20,435 nt of DNA. Origin: a virus. Positions 3,101 to 20,396 of the stretch are shown here, one piece after another. The DNA lies in IMG/VR virus record IMGVR_UViG_3300029448_000565, positions 1-20,435 of that record, one strand, 5' to 3'. The position numbers and the translations under genes were made by a program. Numbering within the stretch: the first letter of the stretch is position 1; each line of letters starts with the position of its first letter. A model generated the notes under the pieces. That model was not told the DNA's origin, did not search any database, and saw nothing but the letters and a program-made list of their open reading frames with translations.

Positions 3101-4253
3101 CAGTGACTGATCCTGTTACGCTCGTGTTTGCATTCAAGACTATGCTTCCTGATCCTGATGGATCCAAAGTTAAGTCTGCATTTGATGGTGATATTAGTGT
3201 TGACCCCGTTGCAGTAAGATCACCTATGCCTGTTGCGGCATCTTGTGTATCCACATATGCCTTAATTGCTTTTGCACTTGCTAAAGTGTCATCTGATCCA
3301 GATACGCTCGAAAGATCCGTATCTAAAACACCTGATTTTAAATTATCAACTTCTATGTTTGAAACTGTGTTGTTGTCTACATCAATTGTTTTGTTTGTTA
3401 ATGATTGCGATCCTGTAAGTGTTGTAACTGTTGAATCAATTGCAAGTGTTACTGTGTTTGATGTTGCACTTGATGATAAACCTGTTCCACCAGCAACTGT
3501 CAATGTTTCACTGTCTAGGTCAATAGCAATCGTGCCACTGTCTGTGGTGATGTCTAAATCTTCTGCTGTGATCTGTGTGTCTACGTAATCTTTTACTGCG
3601 GCTGATGTTGGTAGTGTTGTGTCATTGTCATTTGAACCAATGCCTTCTGACTCTGTTACTAGTGTTGCCGCTTTGATGTTGTCTACTTCTAAATTTGTTA
3701 TTGTGTTGTTGTCTGCGTCAATGGCTTTGTTTGTAAGTGTTTGTGAACCTGTCAATGTCACATCACCTGTTGCTGATGTTGTTGCCTCTGCGTTACCTGA
3801 AGAGTCAAAACCTAAAACTTTGTTTGCTCTTGTTGCCGCGTCAGGTATTGTCATTGTAGCAGTATCGGTGTTTGGTTCTGCTGTTGATATTGCTCTGTTT
3901 TCAATTTTGTCTGTTGCGTCGATCACTGCCTGTGATAAACGATCAAATTCTGCGTTAACTGTGTTTGCCAAGAATGCACCCGACTGTGTGAAGTCTGTTG
4001 TTCTTGCTAGATTTGTGTCTCTGACAAATGTTATGACTGTGCTGTCGCTGGGTGCTGATACAAATACAACTGATCCTGTACCTGAAGTACCTGAATCAAA
4101 CGAAATAGTATAATGTGTTGTTAATGTTTTTTTAGTAGAGCCTTCATATACTGCAATAGACGAACTGTCCGCTATCTCAAAATTGAAAGTAAATGAAACA
4201 GTACTTCCATCTGCTGTGTATGCCACTCTAGGCGTTGTTGTTGATGTTGTCAT
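138..4253 (-). CDS. Tail fibre protein, T7 gp17-like N-terminus, 1371 aa
   Basis: This is the receptor-binding tail fibre subunit, expected to form a trimer attached to the tail. Residues 1-120 (TPRVAYTADG, FTFNFEI, a VITFVRDT strand, then FDRLSQAVIDATDKIENRA) match the style of the T7 gp17 N-terminal tail-attachment domain. Residues 160-1100 are low-complexity Ser/Thr/Asn/Gly/Asp sequence with several internal repeats, as expected for a triple-stranded beta shaft. Residues 1260-1371 form a conserved-looking C-terminal domain with a DGTGSRTATF stretch, also common at the end of marine phage fibres. The protein is far longer than T7 gp17 (553 aa), the extra length being repeats. TAGGAG lies 12 nt before the ATG, a rather long spacing. 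It is the last gene of the ejection-protein block. No chaperone-like domain was recognised. Confidence 0.9.
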   Translation of the reverse strand: MTTSTTTPRVAYTADGSTVSFTFNFEIADSSSIAVYEGSTKKTLTTHYTISFDSGTSGTGSVVFVSAPSDSTVITFVRDTNLARTTDFTQSGAFLANTVNAEFDRLSQAVIDATDKIENRAISTAEPNTDTATMTIPDAATRANKVLGFDSSGNAEATTSATGDVTLTGSQTLTNKAIDADNNTITNLEVDNIKAATLVTESEGIGSNDNDTTLPTSAAVKDYVDTQITAEDLDITTDSGTIAIDLDSETLTVAGGTGLSSSATSNTVTLAIDSTVTTLTGSQSLTNKTIDVDNNTVSNIEVDNLKSGVLDTDLSSVSGSDDTLASAKAIKAYVDTQDAATGIGDLTATGSTLISPSNADLTLDPSGSGSIVLNANTSVTGSVTATTSIENDAIRITDNTIVGLRSNEDLIIDPAGTGEIRPGSDVKLLSNSHNFVGNVTNEDGNALQLSSSAGITLSNNVTGYGYIQTTGDDSYIQTESIKIDAGSGVISGRRSNEDLSLQPAGTGNVILGAVKVNGTTISSDDSTKITLAENVDITGAVGITSGTITGITDLAVADGGTGASTFTANQLLLGNGSSAIAVSGALEWQAGSSTLAVTGNQTISGNLTVSGSTTTINTTNTTIEDNIIELNSGISQSLNDAGIIIERGSTGNNAAIIWDESEDEFTLGTTTATAGDKSGGISVTAGNLKVATIEATNAAITGGTISGLTSFANTGSSTLDGVTINDNTISSNASNADLEISANGTGSVAITKAAITSGTITGITDLTVADGGTGASSLTDNAVLTGTGTSPITAESNLTFNGSTLAVTGNITATTSIANDAVSIDDNVIKTTRSNDSLFFQANGTGSIEFSPNGATVDGVFDSNTRYDFGANRVFSEQDANASSIFSDSGDRRYANGDFLSVSLASSSSNSHARWRSGTFSLMDMKGFSITSSANYFKGIVTRYAETMIKNTSTSAASTLNNITGVYSSLNTTGTDNGGGLTITSGYGFVTDIALGEGTSETVAMTNAYHYAVKGSSGDGAITNEYGVFVDGLGGTNKYGFYTNDDSYINSIGGVTLQNGDITASGVTITDNHISTAASNADLHIDTSGTGKIISNAPIIGIGDGATTATGGGNIVLTDQADGDFQTSADGKVGMLDPTGLQVDSAGSYHYSQLILNNFSTNAYNSLWAARSNSNTHGTNAYLDSGDVIFNFFAAGWNGDTDGTGYYSGNTNVDLYASEAHSASNRGGGFRVKTINKGASSGATTKLTIEDHIEAVEKLEFKKSYQENIDALTSSSTITVDCSAASVFTVTLATNTGFVISNLPTGGSVTLIITQDGTGSRTATFGTDGSTAVKFAGGSKTLSTAASAIDVVTIFNDGTNYIGNLSKSYAA
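975..3188 (-). repeat. Six copies of a 16-residue repeat in the tail fibre shaft
   Basis: A repeat of form (R/A/P)SN(E/A/D)(D/S)L-x4-(A/S/N)G(T/S)G-x-(I/V) occurs at fibre residues 356-371, 405-420, 494-509, 733-748, 833-848 and 1078-1093. In DNA these are 3141-3188, 2994-3041, 2727-2774, 2010-2057, 1710-1757 and 975-1022. Longer duplicated segments also exist: residues 167-194 against 279-306 (LTGSQ(T/S)LTNK, DNNT, EVDN), and 541-564 against 753-776 (ITSGTITGITDL, VADGGTGAS). Copies differ at protein level, so they are old duplications and not a recent tandem expansion. Confidence 0.85.
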
Positions 4254-4284: not shown

Positions 4285-6936
4285 TTAATTTAATAAAGTA
4301 TTCGTAGGCAGTTTATCAAAAATTAAATTGTTGTATGAGCCGCCGTAACGTTTTTTCCTTGCTTCTTTCCTTATCCTCTTTTCTCTTCTCCGGTATCCTT
4401 TTGGATCAATCATCTCGTGCAAGTGCTCTGATAACCATTTTCTCACTAAAAGTTTTGTAATCCATAAGTTCTCCAAACCTGTTTGTCCCAATGCCATCCT
4501 TGTTATTTTGTATAGGCCTTTTCTAGTGGTCTCGTAATTCCTATCTTGTCCTTGTGCTTGTAGTAGTAATCCACCACCTGCTTGTAAAACAACTGCATCT
4601 AACAATTTTGCGGCATCAATGATAGTTGGTCCAAGTTGGTTTCCTAATATTTCTAATGCTGTGCTACGTCTCACTTTTGAATCTGGTGTGAACAGTTGTT
4701 CCATCAATTGATCTCCTCCATTTGAAAAAAATATGTCACTCATTATTCCAAACGAACCACCCTGTATCAATGCTCTCTTCATAAACTCGCCGTCATCTAT
4801 TCTGTACGGCTGTTTACCTGCTATCACTTGTTTGAGTTGTAGCACGGCCGCACTTGAAACAGTGGTCATCGCCGCCAACATCATCAGGTTGGCTATTGCT
4901 TCTTCTTTGGGTGCTGACTTCCAATCTCTTGCAACAATCTTCCTCCAAAACGATATTGGATGTGATTTGAATTGTGTCATCGTTGATCCTACTTGCTGTC
5001 CAATCTTGTTGTCACTAAAAAATTTTGTAGTTAGTATGTCAAATTGTCCTGGTTTCATGACCATAGTGTCTACTGCGTCTGCCATAGTGGCTATTAATTT
5101 GTCTCTGGTGCTTTGTTTTCCAAATGCTACTTGGTGTTGTCTGTCTTGTATTTGGAACAAATCTAATCTTCCGTCAACGTCAAGTGGTTGATCGTTTAAC
5201 AAATCGCCCCAATCTTTTTTAGTAAGTCCAAATTTTTCAAAATTCTGTTTTACTGGTTTGCTGATGTTATCCCAATCGGTCCTGCTGGATATAAGGTCAC
5301 CTATGTTTAATGAATAAGCACCCGCGGCTTTTGCCTGTAGCGATCTAGTCCACCAGTTTAATCCTGAATACTTGAATATTAAATTAGCAAAACCACTACC
5401 ACCTTTTTGGAATCCTGTTTGTGAATCTGTTCCGTCGATCAAACCAAATCTTTCTGTGGCGCTGTCTAACCAACTCTCTTTCATCTCTAACACGTATCTC
5501 ATATTTCTTTTTGATCCTTCTCCATCAAACCAACTTGCCATTGTACGACTGGCGTCTACACCAAACAATCTTTTTCCTGCGTGTACAAATATTGGTAGAT
5601 CCATTAGTGCTGTTATTACTGCTGATCCCAATTTACTACCTGCCATAAATCCTCTTAATCCTGCAAGTCTTTGCACAAACTTTGAGTTCTCGTGTACTGA
5701 CGGATTGACTTGGTTCTCTAACCAACTGAACACACTCCTCATGACTCTGCCATCGTATTCACCACCTTCAAATCTGTTTCCAAATCCTTTGATGCCTTTG
5801 CTTGGATCACCTCTCTCCATACGTTTTTTCAATGCGTCTAAACCTCTTTGGTGATTGGGTCCTAGGAACCGTGTAAGTGTTACTTCTCTTGCAAGTTCTC
5901 TGGTGTGTTGTTCAATCAATTGTTTGCTTGTTGCGTTGTCTGAAAATTTTGTGTTTACTTCCGTAAATGCTGTGCCATCTCTGTATACCAACTGTTCTCT
6001 TTCGTTCTTTGCCAACGGATTGTTGTCTGTTTCATCTTTCAATCTCTTTTCACCTAATGTTCTCCAGTCTGACTCCCCTGTGCCTTTGGACATTTTTTTG
6101 TGTATATTTTGTGCAATAGTCCTCCTGTCTGCTATGGTTCCGTGTTTTGCTTCACTCAAACGAGGTGCAAGGTAATCCATAAATTCCTGTTCTTTCATTT
6201 TCTTTACAAGGGCGTGTTGGAATCTTACTTTGTTCCCCAACGTCGTTAACCTCATGGTTTTACCTGCCAATGAAAGTTTAGTCTGTGACGTGAGGCTGGT
6301 CTCTTCAAAATATGCTTTGGCAAGATCAAACGCTTTTTTGTTTCCTGTTCCTGCTTTAACAGTTGTTGGATTTTGAACAACATTGTAATATTCACTCCAA
6401 AAGTCTTTTTTGAATTCTGGTATTTCAACAAGTTCTTCAAATGTTTCACCTTCGTCGAGTATGTTTTTTATTTTGTTTGTGAGATCTCCAAACATTGAGT
6501 TCTGTTCACTCCTCAACATCAACTCCATTGGTGATGTGCCTCTGGTGTCGTTGGTGTTAACCAGTGTTCCTATGAATGCTCTTTCTCTAATTTGTTCTGG
6601 TGTTGGCTTTTTCTTTAGATCTGTTCTACTTTCATAATATTTTGTTAAATTACGTTCAACGTTTAAAATTGTTTCTGACAACCTCTCTTGGGAGTCAAGT
6701 TGTCTTAGTGTTGTTAATACATCTTCTGTGTTTGCAGAAGTTTCTACTTCATCAATACGTTTAACTTGTTTTTGTAGATTGGTTAATCCGTCGGGATTGA
6801 TGTCAGTGTCTGACTGACCCACCATTGCTTGGTCTTTCCTAAAATTGTCAACTTGTCCTAGGAGTTTTTCTTTTTCTGCATCATCAAGTGTTCTGCCTGT
6901 GGTCCTTGTGAAGTCATCAAAACATTTTTTACTCAT
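4285..6936 (-). CDS. Internal virion / DNA ejection protein, C-terminal gp16-like part, 883 aa
   Basis: This is a large virion protein in the T7 gene 16 position, immediately before the tail fibre gene. Such proteins leave the capsid at infection and help form the conduit across the host envelope. It begins MSKKCFDDF and has long charged helical stretches at residues 1-450. A hydrophobic and aromatic region follows (FKYSGLNWWTRSLQAKAAGA), then a QFKSHPISFWRK segment, and then a hydrophobic stretch (AIANLMMLAAMTTVSSAAVL). The C-terminus is strongly basic (RRREKRIRKEARKKR). This layout is usual for the C-terminal portion of large phage ejection proteins. The ATG lies 1 nt after the previous stop (TAA-T-ATG) without a strong Shine-Dalgarno element, so translation is probably coupled. 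I see no enzymatic motif. The assignment rests on synteny and general style. Confidence 0.75.
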   Translation of the reverse strand: MSKKCFDDFTRTTGRTLDDAEKEKLLGQVDNFRKDQAMVGQSDTDINPDGLTNLQKQVKRIDEVETSANTEDVLTTLRQLDSQERLSETILNVERNLTKYYESRTDLKKKPTPEQIRERAFIGTLVNTNDTRGTSPMELMLRSEQNSMFGDLTNKIKNILDEGETFEELVEIPEFKKDFWSEYYNVVQNPTTVKAGTGNKKAFDLAKAYFEETSLTSQTKLSLAGKTMRLTTLGNKVRFQHALVKKMKEQEFMDYLAPRLSEAKHGTIADRRTIAQNIHKKMSKGTGESDWRTLGEKRLKDETDNNPLAKNEREQLVYRDGTAFTEVNTKFSDNATSKQLIEQHTRELAREVTLTRFLGPNHQRGLDALKKRMERGDPSKGIKGFGNRFEGGEYDGRVMRSVFSWLENQVNPSVHENSKFVQRLAGLRGFMAGSKLGSAVITALMDLPIFVHAGKRLFGVDASRTMASWFDGEGSKRNMRYVLEMKESWLDSATERFGLIDGTDSQTGFQKGGSGFANLIFKYSGLNWWTRSLQAKAAGAYSLNIGDLISSRTDWDNISKPVKQNFEKFGLTKKDWGDLLNDQPLDVDGRLDLFQIQDRQHQVAFGKQSTRDKLIATMADAVDTMVMKPGQFDILTTKFFSDNKIGQQVGSTMTQFKSHPISFWRKIVARDWKSAPKEEAIANLMMLAAMTTVSSAAVLQLKQVIAGKQPYRIDDGEFMKRALIQGGSFGIMSDIFFSNGGDQLMEQLFTPDSKVRRSTALEILGNQLGPTIIDAAKLLDAVVLQAGGGLLLQAQGQDRNYETTRKGLYKITRMALGQTGLENLWITKLLVRKWLSEHLHEMIDPKGYRRREKRIRKEARKKRYGGSYNNLIFDKLPTNTLLN

Positions 6937-11610: not shown

Positions 11611-12245
11611 TAATTGTCATCCATTTTATTTGTATTGCTTAAATCTTTTGTAGTTGTGTCTGTAGTTGTGTCAAAGTTTCCAAACCCTCTTGTGCCAATT
11701 GTTGTCACTGCTCTAGTGTATCCACCTATCACGGACATTTTTGCTTCTTGTCTAAGACTTGACGCTGAGAATTGTTTACTTAATATGTTTTGTGATGTAT
11801 TGAATGCATCAATAAAATCATCTTCTGCAAAAGTTGCCGCAGTTTGTCCTAAAACGTCTGACGGTGTACCTGCAAGTGTTACACCTGTAACTCCGTACAA
11901 TGCTCTTTGTTTTCCTACCGCGGCTCTAAGTGCTCTTGCTCTTTTAACTTTTCTAAGTGCATATGCATCTTCTTCGCCTTTGACTTGGTAGTCTACAAAA
12001 CCTGCTTTAGCATTTAATTGATTTGCTTGTAAGTATCCTGTATATATTGATCCTGCCGCTCCAATAACCGGTGCCGCAATCTTGGCAACACTTGCCAATG
12101 TTTGTAATGTTGATGATGCCCGTGCCGCCTGTATACCACTCTGTATGGCTGTGCCTGCAGACGAGAATAAAGACGTACCACCTGTTGCATAAGCGGCCGC
12201 TCCTATCAATGCTATTTTGGCTAAATCATTTTTTGGTGCACACAT
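11610..12245 (-). CDS. Internal virion protein, gp14-like, 211 aa
   Basis: This protein is in the T7 gene 14 position and has the expected size (T7 gp14 is 196 aa). The N-terminal third is Ala/Gly-rich and hydrophobic (IALIGAAAYATGG, AAPVIGAAGSIYTGYL). The middle is basic (ALRKVKRARALRAAVGKQRA), followed by a GVTLAGTPSDVLGQ motif and a long helix. In T7, gp14 is ejected first and inserts into the outer membrane, which fits a hydrophobic N-terminus. The gene starts at the ATG of TAATG, overlapping the upstream stop by one base, with AGGA about 10 nt before. Its own stop overlaps the next start in the same way. The family assignment is by composition, a shared GTP-type turn and synteny. Confidence 0.75.
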   Translation of the reverse strand: MCAPKNDLAKIALIGAAAYATGGTSLFSSAGTAIQSGIQAARASSTLQTLASVAKIAAPVIGAAGSIYTGYLQANQLNAKAGFVDYQVKGEEDAYALRKVKRARALRAAVGKQRALYGVTGVTLAGTPSDVLGQTAATFAEDDFIDAFNTSQNILSKQFSASSLRQEAKMSVIGGYTRAVTTIGTRGFGNFDTTTDTTTKDLSNTNKMDDN

Positions 12246-17398: not shown

Positions 17399-17893
17399 TT
17401 ATTTGTAGATGAAAGGATCTTTTGCTCTCAACCTTTCTACTAATTCATTGTGGTCTTCATCTTTTTTTAATTTTTCCATTGTGTTGTAGTATGCTGAGTC
17501 CCACCAACTCAACTCATTGTTGTCTAATGTTTTGAATCCTTTGTCCCTGTCCAGGTATTTGTAATCTACTTTTTCAATATCAAACTGTGCCAACCAAGTG
17601 AATATGGTTTTGATTTTGAATTCTTTGCAAGAATAAACATCCAATTGTATCACTGCGGGTTCTAACCAACTGTGGAATGTTACGGAACTGGTGTCTATGA
17701 TAGCAACAGAACTGTATCCTTCATTGCCTTCCACATCTGACCATTCTGTGTGTGGACCCGACAGTATGTTCATGTCAATGTTTTTGATTAAATTTTTTAT
17801 TTCGTTGTCCAAACGTTCTCGGTCTTTGAACAGAGGTGGTGAATTGACCTCCGCTCGTACCAATAGATGCTTGTGTACCAATTGAGGAGTCAT
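17399..17893 (-). CDS. S-adenosylmethionine decarboxylase-like (SpeD-type pyruvoyl) protein, 164 aa
   Basis: SpeD proteins cleave themselves at a serine to make a pyruvoyl group, then decarboxylate AdoMet for spermidine synthesis. Relatives have changed to ornithine or arginine decarboxylation. Against the prokaryotic enzyme (Ser63, His68, Glu72 and Cys83 in Thermotoga maritima), this protein has Ser69, His74, Glu78 and Cys89 with identical spacing. These lie within IDTSSVTFHSWLEP and LDVYSCKEF. The residue before the serine is Thr, not Glu; Asp67 lies one further back. The His that usually follows the serine is Ser70. The N-terminus (HLLVRAEVNSPP) is one beta strand longer than short bacterial forms. 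The start is a TAATG overlap with the upstream 48-aa gene. AdoMet itself as substrate is unproven. Confidence 0.8.
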   Translation of the reverse strand: MTPQLVHKHLLVRAEVNSPPLFKDRERLDNEIKNLIKNIDMNILSGPHTEWSDVEGNEGYSSVAIIDTSSVTFHSWLEPAVIQLDVYSCKEFKIKTIFTWLAQFDIEKVDYKYLDRDKGFKTLDNNELSWWDSAYYNTMEKLKKDEDHNELVERLRAKDPFIYK

Positions 17894-18516: not shown

Positions 18517-18615
18517 TTAGTACGCTTTTCTCTTCGTTCTTTTTGCACCATAAGAAGATTTCTTCTTTGTGCTCGGTCTTTTTCTACCGTATCTTTTTGC
18601 TTTGGTTTTTTTCAT
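18517..18615 (-). CDS. Very basic mini-protein, 32 aa (possibly 52 aa)
   Basis: The product begins MKKTKAKRYGRKRPSTKKKS and ends RTKRKAY. About half its residues are Lys or Arg and none is acidic, so it should bind nucleic acid or another polyanion. GGAGGG lies 6 nt before the ATG, one of the strongest ribosome sites in the window. The frame stays open upstream to another ATG at 18675, which would add 20 residues (MPAGTTVSRSF...) and sit 14 nt after the previous gene, but that ATG lacks a Shine-Dalgarno element. Small size and composition suggest a DNA-condensing or virion-associated protein. No homologue is known to me. Confidence 0.65.
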   Translation of the reverse strand: MKKTKAKRYGRKRPSTKKKSSYGAKRTKRKAY

Positions 18616-18621
18616 TTTTTT

Positions 18622-18627
18622 CCCTCC
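18622..18627 (-). promoter_or_regulatory. Strong ribosome binding site of the 32-aa gene
   Basis: GGAGGG on the minus strand followed by six A residues and ATG. It is the reason for preferring the 32-aa over the 52-aa form, although the same bases could encode part of the longer form. Confidence 0.65.
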
Positions 18628-18689
18628 AGACCAACTGGTCACAAAAGATCTTGATACTGTTGTTCCCGCTGGCATAACTTTATTTAACT

Positions 18690-19148
18690 CTATCCATTTT
18701 TATTGAATGTTTTAGACGGCTTGTAGTTTCGGTTCATGTGCTTGAAGTGTTGTGAACGAGTGCCCACGTAACAGTTGCCCCTGCTCCATGGTTTCTGGTT
18801 GTCCTTCCTGCACAACATCAATGTGTCTCCACCGTTCCTGCCCCTCTTGTGCCAGTTGTGACCCCAGAGATACCTGTAGTCGGTCAGTGACAGTTTCCAT
18901 ACCTCTCCACGGAATACTGCCTGTGCCTTGCTCCTCAGCATCGCCATGTTCTGTGCCTTGACGACAGGGTCAGGCCCGTGCTTCCACACCCACGGCCTAG
19001 GGCCGGTGCAATGGTTGACACGGTTGCCCACTGGCTTGTCGTAGCGGCCGGTCCTGTAGCCTTCACGAAGTGTGCGTGATATGGCCTCTCGGTGTGCGGG
19101 TGATATAATCCTTCTTTTGCGTTTCGCAAATTTTTGTGTTTGCTCCAT
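18690..19148 (-). CDS. Basic DNA-binding-like protein, possibly HNH-related, 152 aa
   Basis: This is a real gene with a strong start: AAGGAG 6 nt before the ATG. Residues 1-15 are highly basic (KFAKRKRRI). Residues 16-36 (SPAHREAISRTLREGYRTGR) resemble the small NUMOD3-type helix often attached to homing endonucleases. The C-terminal half has a Trp/Arg-rich LWGHNWHKRGR stretch, then LCRKDNQKPWSRGNCYVGTR at 112-131 and QHFKHMNRNY. That end is like the 'R.D...g~...N~~~~Tr..h' tail of some phage HNH proteins, but no clear HNH triad is visible. The codons are much richer in G and C than in the virion genes. It is the first gene after the promoter at 19484-19511. Nuclease activity is uncertain. 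Confidence 0.6.
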   Translation of the reverse strand: MEQTQKFAKRKRRIISPAHREAISRTLREGYRTGRYDKPVGNRVNHCTGPRPWVWKHGPDPVVKAQNMAMLRSKAQAVFRGEVWKLSLTDYRYLWGHNWHKRGRNGGDTLMLCRKDNQKPWSRGNCYVGTRSQHFKHMNRNYKPSKTFNKNG

Positions 19149-19483
19149 TTTTGTCTCCTTGTGTATATACAGTATTTATTGTCCCCTGCACCCTTGACAC
19201 CGTGAGTTGACTGGTTGGCCCGATTCTGGGTCAGAGTGGGGGCGGGTGCTTATAACGGTGGCCGAAAAAAATGCAACTTGCCACCCACCTAAAAACCTAG
19301 CAAAACTGGGGGTATGGTGTTTTCCACAACATCCTGTGCCACCCCGGTCAAAGTTTTTACCATCCGGAGCCACCACCCATGGGTCCACCGTTTCTACAGT
19401 AGAGCCACACCGGATCACATCATTCGGTACGTTGGTAATACTGTTGGGACGGTGGCAGAACGGCCACACCTAGGCTTATCTAT
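19149..19483 (-). other. GC-rich leader, no convincing gene
   Basis: This segment of about 330 nt runs from the predicted transcription start to the 152-aa gene. It is richer in G and C than the rest of the window, with many G-runs and C-runs and several GGTGG/CCACC elements able to pair. A 97-codon GTG-started frame (19176-19469) and an 88-codon frame on the other strand both span it. Neither has a ribosome site, and the GTG would lie about 8 nt from the RNA start. Near the 152-aa start is an AT-rich patch. A structured 5' leader or small RNA is possible; none of the known riboswitch classes was recognised. Confidence 0.4.
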
Positions 19484-19563
19484 ATAATAGCACATATTCC
19501 CACTGTGTCAACCGGTGGATCTAGGATCTCCTTCTGGTGGATCACCGTGAGGCCAGTGGCCAT
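19480..19563 (-). CDS. Possible 27-aa ORF overlapping the promoter
   Basis: An ATG at 19561-19563 opens a frame starting MATGLTVIHQKEILD and ending GICAII. Only a weak GAG lies upstream. The frame runs through the promoter boxes, so it may be chance. No function can be proposed. Confidence 0.2.
   Translation of the reverse strand: MATGLTVIHQKEILDPPVDTVGICAII
19484..19511 (-). promoter_or_regulatory. Sigma70-type promoter with extended -10
   Basis: The minus strand has a perfect -35 box TTGACA (19506-19511), a 16-nt spacer and TATTAT (19484-19489) as the -10 box, preceded by TGC, which makes it an extended -10. Transcription should start near 19477 and run toward the 152-aa and auxiliary genes. 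It is the best host-type promoter I can find in the window. Confidence 0.75.
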
Positions 19564-19575
19564 TCTGGCTCGACA

Positions 19576-19668
19576 CTAGATGTAGTCTTTAAACGTTGGC
19601 TGGCTGTCACACTCGGGGAGGCTGTCGTCTTTGTATGTTGGTAAGGTCGTTTGGTCCAAATGAACCAT
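19576..19668 (-). CDS. Possible 30-aa acidic mini-protein
   Basis: The frame starts MVHLDQTTLPTYKDDSLPEC and ends FKDYI. AGGA is 6 nt before the ATG, a good spacing. The peptide is acidic, unlike the basic mini-proteins downstream. It lies between the methyltransferase-linked membrane ORF and the promoter. Without homology this remains a candidate. Confidence 0.35.
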   Translation of the reverse strand: MVHLDQTTLPTYKDDSLPECDSQPTFKDYI

Positions 19669-19695
19669 TCTGATTCCTGCTCACTAAATATTCCA

Positions 19696-19751
19696 GTGCA
19701 GTATCATTCCAAAATAGTTCTCCTTGCAGAGTCTATCTCCTGGTACTGCAC
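19696..19751. repeat. Inverted repeat, 8 bp perfect, extendable to 11
   Basis: GTGCAGTA (19696-19703) and TACTGCAC (19744-19751) are perfect complements. In plus-strand RNA the stem extends through a U-G pair to 11 bp around a 34-nt loop. There is no T-run on either side, so it does not look like a terminator. It lies just after the 30-aa membrane ORF, in the gap before the acidic mini-protein. Confidence 0.4.
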
Positions 19752-19759
19752 CCTTTAAT

Positions 19760-19852
19760 CTAGTCGAACAGCAACACAATAACCACTGCCAGTTCTATCA
19801 CTATAACTGTGTGGTAAAGTGTCCATAGTATTTCTCTGTTCTCTTGTTTCAT
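19760..19852 (-). CDS. Small single-pass membrane protein, 30 aa
   Basis: The frame starts MKQENREILWTLYHTVIVIE and continues as a hydrophobic helix (LAVVIVLLF) ending in Asp. Residues 9-29 form one clear membrane-spanning segment after a short charged N-terminus. The ATG is 4 nt after the methyltransferase stop; there is no Shine-Dalgarno element, so it would depend on coupling. A longer frame from TTG at 19942 lies inside the methyltransferase gene and is unlikely. Such mini membrane proteins are common in phages (holin-like or inhibitors of host membrane proteins), but the function is unknown. Confidence 0.45.
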   Translation of the reverse strand: MKQENREILWTLYHTVIVIELAVVIVLLFD

Positions 19853-19856
19853 TGCA

Positions 19857-20396
19857 TTAGTACTTGTTGGTTTGATTGCCCCACACTCGCCAACCCTCTG
19901 TTTGTGTCCTTGCGAACATTTCCAATCTAGGTCTATCTCCAAACAATCTCACTATGTCATCTCTGACTCTGTCTGGTTTCCTTGAGTGTTCTCTGCGTGG
20001 TTCTTGTATGATCTGATGCACATCCCGGTTGGCTCTGGCAAATCCTCGACCTCTCTTGGCCAACAGGCATATCTCTGCGTTTGCTTTGGTGTAGTTGCCC
20101 AGTCCTGCGTATGGTCGACCATTGTTCCGGTTGGTCTTTACCCACACGAATGCTGTGGTTATGTAGCGGAATCCCCAGGCAGGTATCACTGTTTGGATGC
20201 AACGATCTAGGTAAGGCATGGTGCTCCATATGAACAGATATGCATCGTCACTGCACCAATCCTGCACCGGTATGTCTGCTATCTCCTGTGTGGTCATTGT
20301 GGGATACTTGTCAGTCACTCCGCCACCAAATAGTGTGCCTGTTCGCCTTGTGGCATAGTGCCAGGGTGGGTCAGCATATATGATCTCGTAGCACAC
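19857..20396 (-). CDS. MT-A70-family DNA adenine (N6) methyltransferase, 179 aa
   Basis: This enzyme transfers a methyl group from AdoMet to N6 of adenine. The MT-A70 signatures appear in order: the catalytic DPPW at residues 9-12 (IIYADPPWHY); a YLFIWSTMPYLD strand and helix at 53-64; FVWVKTNR at 83-90; GLGNYTKANAEICLLAKRGRG at 98-118, the AdoMet-binding 'G.G~y.R...E~~L~akrG'; EPRREHSRKPDRV at 132-144; and LEMFART, GWRVWGN at 158-174. The length is normal for a solitary phage enzyme. The start is GTG at 20396; an in-frame stop lies shortly upstream, so little extension is possible. Its codons are GC-rich like the 152-aa gene. No restriction enzyme is next to it. It may shield phage DNA from host restriction; the target sequence is unknown. 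Confidence 0.92.
   Translation of the reverse strand: MCYEIIYADPPWHYATRRTGTLFGGGVTDKYPTMTTQEIADIPVQDWCSDDAYLFIWSTMPYLDRCIQTVIPAWGFRYITTAFVWVKTNRNNGRPYAGLGNYTKANAEICLLAKRGRGFARANRDVHQIIQEPRREHSRKPDRVRDDIVRLFGDRPRLEMFARTQTEGWRVWGNQTNKY

Follow-up and report, generated by a model that had tools for sequence, protein, structure and literature searches.

Between the small genes and the capsid genes of an uncultivated phage lies a real, gene-free and conserved control region (hereafter the hub). It was analysed in the window, meaning the whole 20,435-base virus contig IMGVR_UViG_3300029448_000565, where the minus strand carries the long genes. The promoter sequence, its recurrence in relatives, the lack of coding capacity, the conserved elements and a covarying hairpin were all directly observed. 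Judging from these sequence comparisons, we favour with modest confidence the explanation that the hub is a fast-evolving, cis-acting control site in which a host-type promoter and an untranslated leader would feed into the capsid operon under regulation by the conserved elements.

The window is a fragment of a podovirus-like phage of marine type. Its capsid protein matched 87 distant GenBank phage records, all at <60% identity (best 34%, pelagiphage EXVC031P Hodr) and including HTVC010P-type and Vibrio podovirus-like phages. Homology of the major capsid protein across these 87 records places it with the HTVC010P-type group, and its tail and head families agree with this capsid-based placement. 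HTVC010P-type pelagiphages have capsid homology and a podovirus-like gene order in common with the window, although their capsid proteins are only about 30% identical to its own. At the DNA level no GenBank phage was matched (one window query and two relative queries, one of them the L049 hub, against 50,697 phage records), no cultured member of the phage group was found, and a host search of the genome collection contigs returned neither matches to the element pattern nor relatives for the capsid query. The relatives used here are 50 IMG/VR contigs that encode the capsid protein or part of it; the hub was read in L002, L007, L008, L043, L046, L048, L020, L023, L027/G002, L049, L052, L079 and others. 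These hubs are partly non-independent, since L052, L023 and L049 are 85-88% identical within the hub and L043 and G004 are close.

The hub is flanked on one side by a variable block of small genes and on the other by the operon toward the major capsid gene (Table 1). In the window the gene-free stretch amounts to about 610 nt (19149-19759) rather than about 330 nt, because gene-free DNA extends upstream of the promoter. Relatives contain a gene-free hub of 390-965 nt in the same place, upstream of a small-gene block ending in the capsid gene, and in several of them the genes upstream of the hub run in the opposite direction. The small peptide encoded at the upstream limit is conserved, with 57-70% identity over 27-30 residues in G001/L048, G003, L007, L023 and L052, and 42% identity over 48 residues in L064 and L068; its gene, which escapes ordinary ORF cut-offs, comes after the methyltransferase gene in the window and directly after a 2OG oxygenase gene in G001, G003 and L007. 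The first gene downstream of the leader has no Pfam match, and an HNH assignment was not supported by any Pfam model. The map of G001, which is complete and circular at about 31.66 kb (98-bp exact end overlap), reads TerL, portal, scaffold-like gene (so assigned by position and weak family matches), 2OG oxygenase, three small genes on the other strand, hub, small genes and capsid.

Two further genes of the operon were recorded. The second gene after the window leader encodes a strongly arginine/lysine-rich protein of 52 aa (18517-18675, minus strand), and a similar protein is encoded by the first gene after the leader in L049, L052 and L027; the 52-aa protein could be an RNA- or DNA-binding candidate. 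A gene resembling S-adenosylmethionine decarboxylase (17399-17893, minus strand; phrog_3125) is part of the operon, ahead of the capsid gene.

Table 1. Positions of the hub features and adjoining genes, in window coordinates unless a relative is named
Feature	Position	Strand	Remarks
152-aa gene, first after the leader	18690-19148	-	Matches phrog_16521 (unknown function); starts the operon toward the capsid gene
Predicted untranslated leader, about 329 nt	19149-19477	-	Start near 19477 inferred from the -10 box
TAAATA motif	19173-19178	-	Immediately precedes the downstream gene; candidate late-promoter word of the phage
Conserved sequence element E, core CAAGTTGCATTTTTTTCGGCCACCG	19246-19288	-	Window-free model, E=2.9e-6
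Hairpin C: outer CACCGT/ACGGTG, inner ACAGTA/TACTGT	19386-19454	-	Covaries in 14 loci
Sigma-70-type promoter TTGACA-16-TGC-TATTAT	19484-19511	-	-35 overlaps CACnGTG palindrome (TTGACACAGTG)
Conserved sequence element A (GACAGCCTCCCCGAGTGTGACAGCCAGCCAACGTTTAAAG)	19587-19626	-	Upstream of the promoter in the window; window-free model, E=1.3e-5
30-aa membrane-like peptide gene	19760-19852	-	Upstream limit of the hub; conserved in relatives
MT-A70 type DNA methyltransferase gene	19857-20396	-	Upstream of the hub
Second hairpin	L027 3322-3396; L036 378-450; L023 2962-3032; L049 1220-1290		Also in L048, L007, L008, L002, L011 and L079

The initial annotation had proposed a strong host-type promoter followed by about 330 nt without a credible gene, and both proposals held. 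The promoter letters were confirmed exactly on the minus strand (TTGACA at 19511-19506, a 16-nt spacer, and an extended -10, TGC-TATTAT, with the -10 box at 19489-19484); the site agrees with 11 of 12 consensus bases in addition to the extended -10, and its near-consensus hexamers and 16-nt spacer fit the sigma-70 type (spacing 16-18 nt). Promoter-like sites are not generally enriched in the window (52 against 50.5 expected in shuffles), and this one is the top site of the whole window. Sites scoring at least 11/12 with TG before the -10 occur once in the window against 0.025 per shuffle, and once in the 610-nt gap against 0.000 per shuffle. Downstream of it, about 329 nt separate the predicted start from the gene ending the leader at 19148. 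The leader ORFs of 97, 88 and 57 aa had no relative in a tblastn search of 23 relative sequences, some of them overlapping or from one contig (best E 0.099), while the flanking 152-aa gene, in the same search, does match relatives. A conserved protein frame across 19176-19469, named beforehand as the observation that would speak against a leader, was not found in the relatives.

The promoter recurs in relatives. Extended -10 sites scoring at least 10/12 are present in 11 of 14 hubs, where about 0.01 per hub would be expected (0.003-0.033 in shuffles); at this threshold they are absent from L002, L008 and L079, and L008 has an 11/12 site lacking the extended -10. The promoter points toward the capsid genes in the window, G004, L043, L052, L023, L049 and G002 (10/12 in the last), with a score of 12/12 in L052, L023 and L049. 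In G001, L007, L020 and L040 (12/12 in the latter two) the only direction of the strong promoter is away from the capsid genes, indicating that not every relative would have a leader into the capsid operon. Back-to-back divergent pairs are found in G004, L043 and L052, as expected of a control region. The window, L040 and L008 each have a CACnGTG palindrome overlapping the -35 box. Finally, the promoter lies between elements A and E in the window and upstream of A in L052, L023, L049, L043 and G004, so the window promoter does not simply correspond in identity and position to theirs.

Within the leader, TAAATA resembles the late promoter word of T4-type phages. The window and G001-G004 together have 54 copies on the capsid strand and 24 on the other, often shortly before genes. 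It lies outside ORFs of at least 75 aa in 28 of 54 cases on the capsid strand, compared with 75 of 348 for control words; since the share on the other strand (14 of 24) is also high, a late-promoter role is suggestive only. A separate word, TGGTAA/TTACCA, is unusually common across the small genes and the hub in L002 (1-2750) and in L079.

Elements A and E were each recovered in the window by models from which it had been left out. The element A profile (11 loci) and the rebuilt element E model (14 sequences) each gave a single significant match in the 20-kb window, at the positions and E-values of Table 1. A profile of element E built from seven seeds, window included, matched 19 of 51 sequences with E-values no higher than about 1e-6, and every match is on the capsid strand (that in L033 is partial, at the contig start); many of the other 32 end before the hub. 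Matches in L020, L040 and L017 are weak (E 0.017-0.37). Element E is a nearly ungapped conserved block, and its core pattern was found in 20 IMG/VR contigs, once in each, and in no contig of the genome collection. A peptide was considered for element E, as its downstream part is open in several loci, and was rejected because of stops just upstream and the lack of a start codon in some loci.

A nearly ungapped block that occurs once per contig is also what might be seen at a packaging start site (cos or pac), and the initial annotation had listed a packaging region among its proposals. In G001, however, TerL lies about 5 kb upstream (4555-6024, against element E at 11781-11858) and the map closes by its end overlap away from E. 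With nothing else indicating packaging, that proposal was left unsupported, and we regard such a site as very unlikely.

Outside these elements the hub changes quickly. Its identity is mostly at or below the third-codon-position identity of the neighbouring genes compared: 77% for L043/L046 against 98% (152-aa gene homologue) and 96% (capsid), 85% for L052/L023 against 100%, and 84% for L002/L079 against 87%. The exceptions were L023/L049 (88%, against 54% in one gene and 85% in the capsid gene), L052/L049 (87% against 54%) and L008/L011 (78% against 72% and 83%). When the window is set beside its nearest relatives, the bulk of the leader shows no conservation. Taken together, the comparison of hub and third-codon-position identities describes a variable region with conserved islands. 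The same drift, and the mostly unconserved leader, would be expected if the hub were an ordinary strong promoter followed by a fast-drifting spacer in which the conserved pieces are minor operators, yet A, E and C were recovered independently in the window and hairpin C covaries strongly, and we consider a mere spacer rather improbable.

Base composition and overall folding did not set the leader apart. It has the high G+C that the initial annotation had noticed (about 50%, with 39% elsewhere), but both neighbouring genes are equally G+C-rich and the rise extends, genes included, from about 18,750 as far as the contig end; high G+C therefore does not mark the leader. Nor did the leader as a whole fold better than shuffled sequence (z +0.26; 62 of 100 shuffles at least as good). 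No Rfam family exceeded the gathering threshold in the window, and none was found in four of five relatives, including L052; loose thresholds added nothing meaningful in either case. No tRNA or tmRNA was found in the window or in eight relatives. A weak tRNA-like Rfam match in the L008 hub (3863-3930, minus strand; 34 bits) was not confirmed by ARAGORN and was discarded.

In contrast to the leader as a whole, hairpin C, which lies between the promoter and element E in the window, covaries strongly. Over 14 loci, window included, chosen because C is recognisable in them (the count omits L020 and L048), 93.5% of 168 cells are paired, compared with 29-60% when the partners are slid by 1-3 columns. 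Double changes occur at five pairs (17 cells), and none of 500 shuffles reached the paired percentage, the number of double-change cells or the covariation score. Depending on the locus the inner helix reads ACTCT/AGAGT, ACCCT/AGGGT, ACCGT/ACGGT or ACAGT/ACTGT, and RNAalifold predicts the helices unaided from a nine-sequence alignment. The covariance analysis proposed for homologous leaders thus yielded compensatory changes. A covariance model of C built without the window ranked the window's C first of nine matches, at an E of only 0.31, and the next four matches also fell in the hub, on both strands. In relatives outside its seed the model matched strongly in L064, L068 and L036 and more weakly in L040, L008, L011, L013 and L020; L007 and G001 gave no convincing match.

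Hairpin C showed no consistent strand preference. All 16 loci folded gave a hairpin on either strand (z -1.2 to -6.1; L048 placed by eye), the lower energy being on the opposite strand in eight, on the leader strand in seven and equal in one. For the window the values are z -3.15 and -22.9 kcal/mol on the leader strand, and z -6.07 and -32.5 kcal/mol on the opposite strand. Because C folds on both strands and the only promoter of some relatives points the other way, a function at the DNA level fits as well as one in RNA.

A second, three-way-junction-like hairpin was observed downstream of element E in relatives; its stems change while a loop word, UUGCCAUA/GUGCCAUA, is conserved. It has z -2.3 to -3.8 in nine of ten relatives (L079, -1.3) and also folds on the opposite strand; it was absent from the window. 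An alignment of it by MAFFT was rejected for pair counts because L036 was misplaced.

These observations bear on whether hairpin C and its neighbouring structures form a dedicated structured RNA, such as a riboregulator, an antitermination leader or a small RNA. Covarying helices and loop words conserved in most loci argue for it, as do the second hairpin of the relatives with its UUGCCAUA-type loop and a long hairpin that starts within the first few nucleotides past the -10 box in L052, L023, L049 and L068. Against it stand the ordinary fold of the whole window leader, the absence of the second hairpin there, the better folding of the window's C on the opposite strand, the lack of Rfam matches in the window, L052 and others, and the retention of C in L020 though no promoter points through it. 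We find a dedicated RNA possible but not probable. Of the structured leader proposed initially, a covarying hairpin and a conserved sequence element stood, whereas folding of the leader as a whole did not; and since C is strand-neutral, the leader fold is ordinary and the hub is a variable region with conserved islands, we do not call the hub a structured RNA.

Palindromes are a further hub property. CACCGTG/CACGGTG is 29-fold enriched over 11 hubs (28 copies, against 19 in the rest), with two copies in the window hub and none in its remainder, one in the G001 hub and none in the L007 hub. Lag signals of 10-11 bp were detected in G004 (z 4.9), L023, L020 and G001; this periodicity was not seen in the window.

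Strand neutrality, palindromes and phasing raise the question of whether the hub is the phage replication origin, fired by host factors and perhaps aided by transcription from the strong promoter, with hairpin C, the palindromes, the helically phased repeats and the A-tract of element E as putative origin parts. Consistent with this, the complete circular G001 (23 ORFs scanned) has no DNA polymerase, primase or helicase family, G002 encodes a clamp-loader-like ATPase in the gene block adjoining the hub (L090 4650-5393, minus strand; phrog_168, E=3.8e-36), and element E is present once per contig in 20 of 20 contigs. However, no initiator gene was recognised, the GC-skew turning point is not clearly at the hub and the window lacks the 10-11 bp phasing. 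An origin, and the assignment of these parts to it, is accordingly a tentative minority reading. More speculative still, and doubtful, would be an undescribed origin-and-control element in a phage group without recognisable replication enzymes, in which host RNA polymerase, from a promoter that can flip, opens or primes a hairpin-and-palindrome origin; just as doubtfully, such an origin might evolve very fast, perhaps escaping competition between co-infecting relatives.

The reading that we prefer, a cis-acting control hub, would work as follows. Transcription by host RNA polymerase most likely begins at the TTGACA/TGC-TATTAT promoter and would give an untranslated leader of about 330 nt that leads on to the 152-aa gene and capsid operon. 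The conserved features, namely hairpin C, element E and the CACnGTG palindromes (the -35 box overlaps one of these), may be binding or processing sites for phage or host factors, and would thereby regulate the promoter, the leader or both, with C acting as either DNA or RNA. Evidence counted against a control hub includes the flips in promoter direction, the absence of the site at the threshold from L002, L008 and L079, the differing order of promoter and element A, the E-value of the window's C and the hypervariability of the hub.

In the literature on pelagiphages, structured RNAs of marine phages, podovirus origins and phage leaders, including PMC12286853 and PMC2864571, no description of the hub was found, nor was any literature linking MT-A70 with origins. 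GOLLD and ROOL phage RNAs are described in PMC12286853 as non-coding, with covarying helices, large and highly elaborate, and often near tRNA islands. The hub is likewise non-coding and phage-encoded and has covarying helices; in contrast, it has one conserved two-helix hairpin, with neither a tRNA in the window nor an Rfam match.

The hub is a non-coding control site, conserved in a group of uncultivated phages and without a match among GenBank phages (hub DNA) or in Rfam. Elements A, C and E and the promoter are defined parts, each of which is separately testable. Were the hub an origin, it would illustrate the recruitment of host replication by a complete phage genome (about 30 kb) that has no known replication enzymes.

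Two well-known systems offer further comparisons. ColE1-type origins with RNA II are transcription-primed. Several relatives likewise have a strong promoter about 500 nt ahead of element E, a G/C block with an A run after it, although this spacing is only about 170 nt in the window and some relatives have no promoter in that direction. The lambda pL-nutL-N region is a phage promoter-leader control region, with a strong sigma-70 promoter and an untranslated leader containing a hairpin. While the promoter of the hub, unlike that of lambda, flips direction between relatives, both systems combine a strong sigma-70 promoter, a hairpin in an untranslated leader (a predicted one in the hub) and small basic proteins encoded downstream.
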